Of a stretch of DNA of 64,000 nucleotides, positions 54,868-60,183 are shown in pieces. The notes beneath the pieces were generated by a model. That model was given only the letters and a program-made list of their open reading frames with translations, did no database searches and was not told the origin of the DNA. Made by a program: the position numbers and the translations under genes. The DNA comes from Corallococcus soli (lineage in GTDB: Bacteria; Myxococcota; Myxococcia; Myxococcales; Myxococcaceae): NCBI RefSeq assembly GCF_014930455.1, contig NZ_JAAIYO010000001.1, forward strand, positions 1,240,001 through 1,304,000, read 5' to 3'. The stretch's first letter is position 1. The number at the start of each line of letters is the position of its first letter.

Positions 54868-56235
54868 CTACCCCAGCGCGTCCGCCAGCCGGGTCGCGTC
54901 GCGGATGCAGTCGTTGACGCCCACGCCCCGGTACGCGTTGCCGGTGAGGTGCAGGCCAGGCCAGCGCTTCAGCTGGCCGTCCAGCGACGCCACCCGCCCC
55001 AGGTGGCCCACGGTGTACTGCGGGATGCCGCGAGGCCAGCGCACGACCTCCGTCAGCTCCGGCGTCGCGGTGAGGCCCGTCATCGCCTTCAGCTCCTCGC
55101 GCGCCAGCGCCGCCAGCGCGTCCTCGTCCCGCGCGACGACGTCCGGCCGGCGCGTGCCGCCCAGCAGGCACGTGAGCAGCACCCGGCCGCCCTGGGCGCG
55201 GAAGGGGAACGTGGTGGAGACGTGGATGGTGCCCAGCACCGCCTTGCCCTCCACCGCCGGCACCAGGAACCCGAACCCGTCCGGCTTCGGCGTCGTGCCC
55301 GGCGCGAAGCCCAGGTGCACCACCGCCATGGGCGCGTACTCGATGGCCCCCAGCGTCGCCGCCATGGGCGCGTCCAGCGGCCGCAGGAGGTCCGCCGCGA
55401 CGTGCGCGGGCACCGCCAGCACCACCTGGGACGCGCTCAGCTCCACCGGCTGCCCGCGCTCGCGCGCCTGGATCCTCCACCCGTCCGGCGTGGGCGTGAG
55501 GCCCTCCACCTTCGCGTCGGTGCGCACCGTGTCGCTCAGCGCCGCCGCCAGGGCGTCCACCAGCACGCCCAGCCCTCCATCGAAGGTGCTCAACAGGCCG
55601 GTGAGCTGGGGCTTCGCGGCGCCGTCCCCCTTCGCGGCCTCCCGCGCGGCGCGCTGGGCGCGGATGGCGCCCAGGATGAGGCTGCGGTGGTCGCGCTCGA
55701 ACTTCACCAGCTGCGGGAACGTGGCCTCCGCGCTGAGCCGCTCCGGGTCGCCCGCGTAGATGCCCGTCTGCACCGCGTCCAGCAGCACCGTGGTCGCCTC
55801 GCGGCCCAGGTGGCGCCGGCCCAGCTGCGCCAGCGACTCGTCCACGCCCCGGGGACCGCGACCGCTGAACAGCTCCCCCAACACCCGCAGCCGCGCAGGC
55901 AGGGAAATCAGGTCGGATTTGAGGAACGCGGGAGGTGAGGCAGGCAATACCCGGAGCGCACCGCGAGTGAAGATGTAACGGTTTTTTGCCGCTGCATCCG
56001 CTGCACGGATGCGTGTTTCAAGACCCAGGGTCCCCGCCAGTGAACGGGTCGCGGGCTCGCGGTCCAGGAAACTGTTGGGTCCGGCCTCCAGCAGGTACTC
56101 ACCGCGTGTGCGGGTCTGCACGTTTCCACCCACGCGCGACGAGGACTCCAGCACCACGGCAGCCGTGCCGCGCGACCGCAATCGGTGAGCCAGGACCAGT
56201 CCTGAAATCCCCCCGCCGATGATCGCCACCGTCAT
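54868..56235 (-). CDS. hemG: Protoporphyrinogen oxidase (FAD, oxygen-dependent type)
   Basis: About 455 residues from the ATG at 56235; ATGs at 56244 and 56268 are alternatives. It oxidises protoporphyrinogen IX to protoporphyrin IX in heme synthesis. The FAD dinucleotide motif [19 protein letters not shown] opens the chain, followed by [17 protein letters not shown] and the [18 protein letters not shown] block. The C-terminus [23 protein letters not shown] binds FAD. Agreement with the M. xanthus enzyme, as I remember it, is high throughout. It diverges from csgA with about 100 bases between starts. Confidence 0.95.
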
Positions 56236-56335
56236 GTCGTCCATCCCCTGCTGTCGTGAGGTGAGCACCCACGGGCGCCTTAGTGCGAAGGGGGAGGCTT
56301 TGCCAAGGAGAGCAACCCCGCGCGTTAATACAAGT

Positions 56336-57025
56336 ATGCGCTACGTCATCACGGGAGCCAGCCGCGGAATCGGTTTCGAGTTCGTGCAGCAGCTGCTGCG
56401 GCGAGGAGAGACCGTCGACGCGGGCGTGCGCGCCCCGGAGATGGCGCGTCGGCTGGAGCCGCTGCTACACGAGTCCGGCAACCGCCTGCGGATCCACGCG
56501 CTGGACGTCACGCAGGGGGACAGCGTGCGCGCGTTCGCGGCGAACGTCTGCCGCGAGCCGGTGGACGTGCTGATCAACAACGCGGGCGTGTCGGGCCAGT
56601 GGGTGGGGTTGCACGAGCTGGACTTCGAGGACCTGGAGCGCACGTTCGCGGTGAACGCGCTCGGGCCGCTGCGCATCACGTCCGCGCTGCTGCCCGCGCT
56701 GCGACATGGCGTGGGCCGCAAGGTGGCGCACGTCACGTCGCGGATGGGCTCGCTCTCCAGCAACACGGAGGGCGGCGCGTACGCGTACCGCATGTCCAAG
56801 GCCGCGCTGAACATGGGCGTGCGCTCCATGGCCAACGACCTGCGCCGGGACGGCCTGGCGTGCGTGCTGCTGCATCCGGGTTGGGTGCAGACGGACATGG
56901 GCGGCCAGGACGCGCCGCTGCCGGCGGACGACTCGGTGCGCGGGATGCTCCGGGTCATCGACGGAGTCTCGCTGGAGCACTCCGGCCGCTTCTTCGACTA
57001 CGAGGGCGCGGAGGTCCCCTGGTAG
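56336..57025 (+). CDS. csgA: C-factor CsgA, short-chain dehydrogenase family
   Basis: 229 residues, the same length as M. xanthus CsgA. The nucleotide site is TGASRGIG (7-14), NNAG is at 81-84, and the catalytic residues are Ser135 (TSRMGS), Tyr151 and Lys155 (YRMSK). Ser135 and Lys155 are the residues known to be needed in M. xanthus. The C-terminal run [11 protein letters not shown] and [14 protein letters not shown] closely matches that protein as I recall it. CsgA is the contact-dependent developmental signal, cut by PopC to p17. The ATG has no good ribosome-binding site; AAGGAG lies 25 bases away. The full p25 form is intact here. Confidence 0.93.
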
Positions 57026-59592: not shown

Positions 59593-59601
59593 CGCTTCCG
59601 C

Positions 59602-60183
59602 TCAGGGAAACAACAACTGCGTCTTCCAGCCTTCGCCCTCGCGCAGGTACAGGTTGCGCTCGTGCAGGCGGCTGGCGCGGGCGTGCCAGAACTCGATGCG
59701 CTCCGGCACCACGCGGAAGCCGCTCCAGTGCGGAGGCCGCTCCACCGGCCGGCCCTGGAACCGGGCCTCCACCTCCGCCACGCGCGCGTCCAGCAACGTG
59801 CGCTCCGGCAGTTCCTGGCTCTGGAGGCTGGCCCACGCGCCAATCTGGCTGCCGCGCGGCCGGCTCTGGAAGTACGCGTCCGCCTCCGCGTCCGTCACCT
59901 GCTCCACCCGGCCCTCGATGCGGACCTGCTGCTCCAGGGGCTGCCAGTGGAAGCACAGCGCGGCATGGGGGTGGGCGGTGAGCTGGCGCCCCTTGCGGCT
60001 GTGGAAGTTGGTGAAGAAGACGAAGCCCCGCGCATCGAAGTCCTTGAGCAGCACCACCCGGGCGCTCGGACGGCCCTCGTCGTCCACCGACGCCACCACC
60101 ATGGCGTTGGGGTCCACGGGGATGACCTGTCTTGCCTGGGCGAAGAGGTCGGCGAAGCGCTGGATGGGGTCGGGGGGGATCAT
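59602..60183 (-). CDS. pdxH: Pyridoxamine 5'-phosphate oxidase
   Basis: 193 residues from the ATG at 60183; an ATG at 60198 is possible. FMN enzyme oxidising pyridoxine or pyridoxamine 5'-phosphate to PLP. Motifs: AMVVASVDDEGRPSARVVLL, FFTNFHSRKGRQL for FMN binding, YFQSRPRGSQIGAWAS, and the C-terminal IEFWHARASRLHERNLY. A flavoprotein of this family (FprA) is known near csgA in M. xanthus; this is probably its counterpart. It converges on the CapA-like gene. Confidence 0.95.
   Translation of the reverse strand: MIPPDPIQRFADLFAQARQVIPVDPNAMVVASVDDEGRPSARVVLLKDFDARGFVFFTNFHSRKGRQLTAHPHAALCFHWQPLEQQVRIEGRVEQVTDAEADAYFQSRPRGSQIGAWASLQSQELPERTLLDARVAEVEARFQGRPVERPPHWSGFRVVPERIEFWHARASRLHERNLYLREGEGWKTQLLFP

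Follow-up and report, generated by a model that had tools for sequence, protein, structure and literature searches.

Two models of CsgA action are described in the accessible part of PMC11559036. In one model, a p17 fragment of the protein acts at the cell surface. In the other, intact CsgA is a cardiolipin phospholipase, and diacylglycerols are released from the inner membrane. The two models are not mutually exclusive in that account, and the phospholipase activity is likewise stated in the accessible part of PMC12288465. The initial annotation of the locus studied here took CsgA to act at the cell surface. This holds as one current model, but the rival model places a cardiolipin phospholipase inside the cell (PMC11559036, accessible part). 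In the csgA locus of the Myxococcaceae (PPOX-csgA-pdxH-glgA, PPOX being protoporphyrinogen oxidase), the other genes keep their order and relative strands in the relatives examined, whereas the present locus differs by a 2.4-kb CapA-like gene that is found there in Corallococcus only, among 96 genomes. The literature searched, which included the accessible parts of PMC8561891, PMC12288465, and PMC8542856 and left most subscription papers outside reach, yielded no account of a csgA-CapA-like-pdxH arrangement. The same searches found nothing on csgA together with fprA in Myxococcus or on protoporphyrinogen oxidase together with csgA in Myxococcus xanthus.

Two described protein systems are relevant to the CapA-like gene product. 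One is the CapA/PGA_cap family (PF09587), whose GD, NLE, NNHxxD, HxGxEY, HHPH, and LGN motifs are shared by the 12 sequences that were aligned, with single letters outside the key residues varying in the most distant rows. The other is the lasso peptide epimerase MslH, whose functional residues are given as Asp11, Glu44, Asn87, His88, Asp91, His259, His261, and His295 in the accessible part of PMC10406935.

The window, a 64,000-nucleotide stretch of Corallococcus soli DNA, belongs to a genome of 9.4 Mb. The four genes that the initial annotation recognized at 54868-60183 are all intact open reading frames at that place by ORF and profile checks (Table 1). The ORF of the PPOX gene opens with a GTG and holds an internal ATG that is a possible true start, and pdxH may start at the ATG at 60198 or at the one at 60183. 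The PPOX gene had been called hemG. It is taken here to encode the FAD/HemY type, so that hemG is a loose name under what we take to be the E. coli usage of hemG and HemY for the PPOX types. Its divergence from csgA is evident from the opposite strands of the two genes. The description of csgA as upstream of pdxH is right as to neighborhood but not in the transcriptional sense because the two genes are convergent. The neighbor of csgA in M. xanthus, pdxH here, is presumably the gene named fprA. The CapA-like gene follows csgA on the same strand after 161 bp. Read by eye, the DNA next to the PPOX gene (window 52719-54868) seems to encode a response regulator paired with a sensor kinase.

Table 1. 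Features of the csgA neighborhood in the window, with related features located elsewhere
Feature	Location	Strand	Support
HemY-type protoporphyrinogen oxidase (PPOX)	54868..56268	-	TIGR00562 300.4 bits (cut-off 97.85); PF01593
csgA (C-factor), 229 aa, short-chain dehydrogenase family	56336..57025	+	PF00106 E 2.5e-31
Candidate upstream element of CapA-like gene (GCAGGC block + CTGGCGC block)	57081..57120	+	
CapA-like (PGA_cap) lipoprotein, 801 aa	57187..59592	+	PF09587 168 bits (cut-off 27)
pdxH (pyridoxamine 5'-phosphate oxidase)	59602..60198	-	TIGR00558 258.8 bits (cut-off 180)
glgA, glycogen synthase; in conserved neighborhood	60265..61698	+	TIGR02095 546.7 bits
CapC-type long frame in the genome of the window	G000:C4:315051-315986		PF14102 x2, tandem
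Other junction inserts in two g3 genomes	L075:2912-5108, L076:2689-3594		

The csgA product is assigned as CsgA from its sequence: it is a 229-residue member of the short-chain dehydrogenase family with the key residues, and its gene adjoins pdxH. The 229 codons with Ser135, Tyr151, and Lys155 were found as first described, and Thr6 and Arg10 are likewise present. These five residues are, we assume, the key residues of M. xanthus CsgA. No CsgA-specific NCBIfam model appeared among the best 25 of 201 rows, and those 25 all fell below their own cut-offs. The genome of the window has a single csgA copy at the threshold used (E up to 1e-40). A second csgA-like gene, with 42-58% identity to the query, was observed in 18 of the 96 genomes (for example at G025:C495:3107-3790 and G071:C1:1926164-1926847), and a third in one.

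The csgA/pdxH junction was compared across a sample of 96 genomes from the Myxococcaceae, the family of the window, with csgA matches accepted at E up to 1e-40. The sample contains a Corallococcus group of 16 genomes (g1) and a genus group of 27 genomes (g19) that includes at least two Pyxidicoccus (G053 and G056). Gaps were measured between aligned coding ends and therefore count the stop codons. csgA was matched in 66 of the 96 genomes and pdxH in 92. The best csgA match and pdxH lie on one contig in 60 of the 66 genomes, convergent in every case (60/60), and on separate contigs in the remaining six. Outside Corallococcus, 44 of 46 one-contig pairs are 7-145 bp apart, and none of the 46 holds the CapA-like gene between csgA and pdxH. 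Among the one-contig pairs of Corallococcus, 13 of 14 have a gap of 2570-2640 bp with the CapA-like gene inside; the gap of the Corallococcus genome G030 is 17 bp (L084:6400-6430). In two further Corallococcus genomes, G019 and G026, the locus is split over two contigs. The CapA-like gene lies at the contig ends adjoining pdxH in both and also adjoins csgA in G026, which fits the same csgA/CapA-like/pdxH arrangement. Thus, absence of the CapA-like gene near csgA in all relatives, a prospect raised in the initial annotation, is false within Corallococcus but holds for each of the other genera examined.

The distribution of the CapA-like gene was probed with residues 190-801 of its product as the query, the best 13 candidates per genome being scored in the family. 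At E up to 1e-30, the gene was found in 15 of 16 Corallococcus genomes, 6 of 27 g19 genomes, and 0 of 53 other genomes of the family. In a phylum sample (E up to 1e-40, best 6 candidates per genome scored), 23 of 195 genomes matched: the same 21 again, together with two small genomes from a different family (35-39%). A scan of genome contigs with the protein returned 14 loci, including an uncultured proteobacterium (43%) and Nannocystis (31%). The protein of the window is closest to Corallococcus records (up to 87%). In the six g19 carriers, the gene lies far from csgA: it is on a contig other than that of csgA in four and about 2.6 Mb off on the same contig in G063 and G068. A LysR-type gene comes after it in all six (start read by eye; profile-tested in one), and at L088 the two genes are separated by a frame that by eye resembles a receiver domain. 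The initial annotation had offered a later insertion of the CapA-like gene as one option, and this option is favored by its absence from the 46 short or otherwise occupied junctions of other genera, by the placement of the g19 orthologues elsewhere, and by G030, where the gene is lacking at the locus.

No CapA-like gene was found in G030 at all, a draft of ~860 contigs in which a copy elsewhere is possible. In a FastTree tree of five concatenated neighbor proteins from 29 genomes, G030 falls beside G026 inside Corallococcus, with supports of 0.92, 0.99, and 0.985 on its path. Because G030 is nested in this way, gene loss is the simple reading of its 17-bp junction. A tree of the CapA-like protein itself (22 rows, the split copy of G026 left out) keeps the two genus groups apart, and the order inside Corallococcus is partly different. 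The window and the six g19 genomes share 65-69% identity in the CapA-like protein, 67-68% in hemY (the PPOX gene), 75-80% in csgA, and 76-79% in pdxH, values that are compatible with an old common origin. Seven of the 16 Corallococcus genomes have a 59-60% match (E up to 1e-90) to the LysR gene that accompanies the g19 orthologue; the window's own genome (G000) gave none at that threshold. DNA flanking the gene at L088 gave short scattered matches only, in four genomes. No empty donor site emerged, so the gene may have been relocated or may have been gained twice, separately, from a related source.

Further evidence on the history of the gene comes from the DNA upstream of it. The last 130 bases before the gene were compared between 14 of 15 Corallococcus copies (the split G019 copy left out) and 5 of 6 g19 copies (that of G056 is cut near a contig end). 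The mean local alignment score was 12.6 over 70 g1-g19 pairs, which are not independent of one another (range 8.0-21.5). The highest mean in 20 dinucleotide shuffles was 8.8, and a control taken from more distant upstream DNA had a mean of 7.5 and a highest single score of 10.0. Single g1-g19 pairs fall to chance level (8.0). A related block is present upstream of the gene in the five g19 carriers compared. The exact pattern of the element occurs once in G000, once in G018, and not at all in G063 and G062, with one control match in G063. Since the exact pattern misses G063, the element appears to be related and not identical between the two genus groups, a relatedness that is read at the level of sequence. 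The upstream bases align above chance on average, so that the gene seems to have brought its own upstream region with it.

A sigma-54-like reading, by eye, of the CTGGCRC..CTGC block was dropped on its GG-to-GC spacing of 9, the spacing of a sigma-54 site being 10. Rfam gave no match at gathering scores in the window, L113, or L088. Folding of the 115 bases 3' of csgA in six genomes gave z values of -1.8 to +1.1 against mononucleotide shuffles. Given these two results, we do not propose an RNA structure or a terminator here.

The CapA-like gene is under purifying selection. Over 78 pairs of 13 Corallococcus genomes, the whole gene has a median dN/dS of 0.33, with 0.22 in the CapA domain, 0.42 in the N-terminal spacer, and 0.28 in the C-terminal part. 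The neighbors have values of 0.17 (csgA), 0.32 (hemY), 0.23 (pdxH), and 0.25 (glgA).

What kind of protein does the gene encode? A VVAC lipobox with Cys18, read as a motif, provides an N-terminal lipoprotein signal. In the eight other N-termini compared, an AC-type lipobox is likewise followed by a cysteine, and the residue after that cysteine is Gly or Ser in all nine. The residue after the lipoprotein cysteine governs sorting. The lipoprotein most likely resides in the outer membrane or at the cell surface. Its N-terminal part has a Pro-rich spacer, followed in Pfam by a CarboxypepD_reg-like (transthyretin-like) domain at 115-180 and the PGA_cap domain at 200-464, and a beta-rich C-terminal part starts at about residue 592. 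Compared with the PGA_cap family, the transthyretin-like domain, the Pro-rich lipid-anchored N-terminus, and the C-terminal beta-rich part are extra, and the gene is not beside capsule genes. An AlphaFold2 model of residues 95-801 has a mean pLDDT of 71.8. Foldseek hits of birnavirus VP2 to the full model were discarded (TM ~0.1, rmsd over 20).

The CapA domain is assigned a calcineurin-like metallophosphoesterase fold. Its closest solved structure is MslH (8itg; Z 34.1, rmsd 2.9, 308 aligned residues, 24% identity), and the match to YmdB is at Z 17.2. Seven of the eight functional residues of MslH correspond to Asp205, Glu264, Asn305, His306, Asp309, His406, and His440 in a profile alignment, the counterpart of Asp11 being placed through the start of the structural alignment. 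None of these seven varies among the 12 sequences aligned, which include that of the window. The position of His261 is Gly408. A glycine occupies the same motif in the four other PGA_cap proteins of the window's genome, which makes the MslH form look like the exception. From its sequence, the protein is placed in the PGA_cap family with its predicted metal-site and catalytic residues intact.

Pfam gives no match for the C-terminal 210 residues. A model of this part on its own has a mean pLDDT of 55.5; its best structural match is a hyaluronan-binding module (Z 11.2), with CBM16 and CBM4 entries also at about 9.8 and with phage tail, MAM-domain, and birnavirus capsid proteins nearly as high (Z 9-10). 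The carbohydrate-binding matches carry little weight because the model is poor and the matches are mixed. That this part might be a jelly-roll-like carbohydrate-binding domain is only a guess from the model.

These findings converge on a model that we consider probable. In this model, an independent CapA-like unit was inserted at the csgA/pdxH junction and would encode a surface polymer-binding metallohydrolase with no direct part in C-signaling. The insertion would have taken place in the Corallococcus lineage, at a junction that was very short and convergent, and the unit would since have been maintained there by selection for a function of its own. Its product would bind an extracellular polymer and then hydrolyze or release it. 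Since the gene lies elsewhere in g19 with a related upstream element, it probably came as its own unit. The glycine at the His261 position, shared with the four paralogues, speaks for a metallohydrolase rather than an epimerase. The polymeric substrate, the hydrolytic reaction, and the independence from CsgA are presumed in this model. The stable position of the gene within Corallococcus counts against it, as does possible read-through from csgA.

An alternative is that the protein is the CapA of a poly-gamma-glutamate-type capsule system with a CapB/CapC-type synthetase encoded elsewhere. The PF09587 score is well above its cut-off, and one long frame with two tandem CapC-type (PF14102) matches is present in all 16 Corallococcus genomes. 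However, the window's genome has five PGA_cap loci, so that a pairing of this CapA with that CapC is not specific. Furthermore, the four adjacent genes tested encode PPOX, csgA, pdxH, and glgA, none of them capB or capC, and the CapC-type frame is also present in G030, where the CapA-like gene was not found. A capsule role of this kind is unlikely.

A functional partnership with csgA, in which the CapA-like gene is co-transcribed during starvation and alters the matrix or the exposure of the C-signal through its surface enzyme, is a further alternative. Its short distance from csgA on the same strand, its identical place in all 13 Corallococcus carriers with an unbroken locus, and the purifying selection on it agree with a partnership. 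Against this, six g19 orthologues lie far from csgA, G030 retains csgA with no CapA-like gene found, the upstream block is related to that at the g19 location, and csgA and pdxH are paired without the gene in all 46 one-contig pairs outside Corallococcus. Such a partnership is very unlikely, and a C-signaling link of the CapA-like gene is unsupported. Read-through from csgA is possible because the two genes share a strand 161 bp apart. In a narrower version, the inserted lipoprotein enzyme was co-opted into C-signaling in Corallococcus through read-through expression from csgA and modifies fruiting-body form by remodeling either a surface glycan or a signal derived from phospholipid; this version is more improbable still. 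Were the enzyme to work together with CsgA, C-signaling would gain a handle specific to this genus. The CapA-like gene is most likely an ordinary neighbor and not a new signaling part, and the case warns against assigning a function to a gene because it adjoins a well-known developmental one.

An MslH-like peptide epimerase acting on a secreted peptide can nearly be discounted. MslH comes nearest among solved structures, and the protein shares seven of the eight functional residues, but the eighth is changed, and the score with the NCBIfam epimerase model NF038314 is 38 bits (cut-off 700). Unlike MslH, the protein is a lipoprotein with extra domains.

Other genes have entered the same junction. 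In the g3 genomes G005 and G003, csgA and pdxH are 1531 and 2220 bp apart. A PD-(D/E)XK transposase-family gene lies in the junction of both, and a pRiA4b ORF-3-like gene lies additionally in that of G003. The csgA/pdxH junction, 7-145 bp long in nearly all members examined, tolerates insertions, with three kinds of gene seen.
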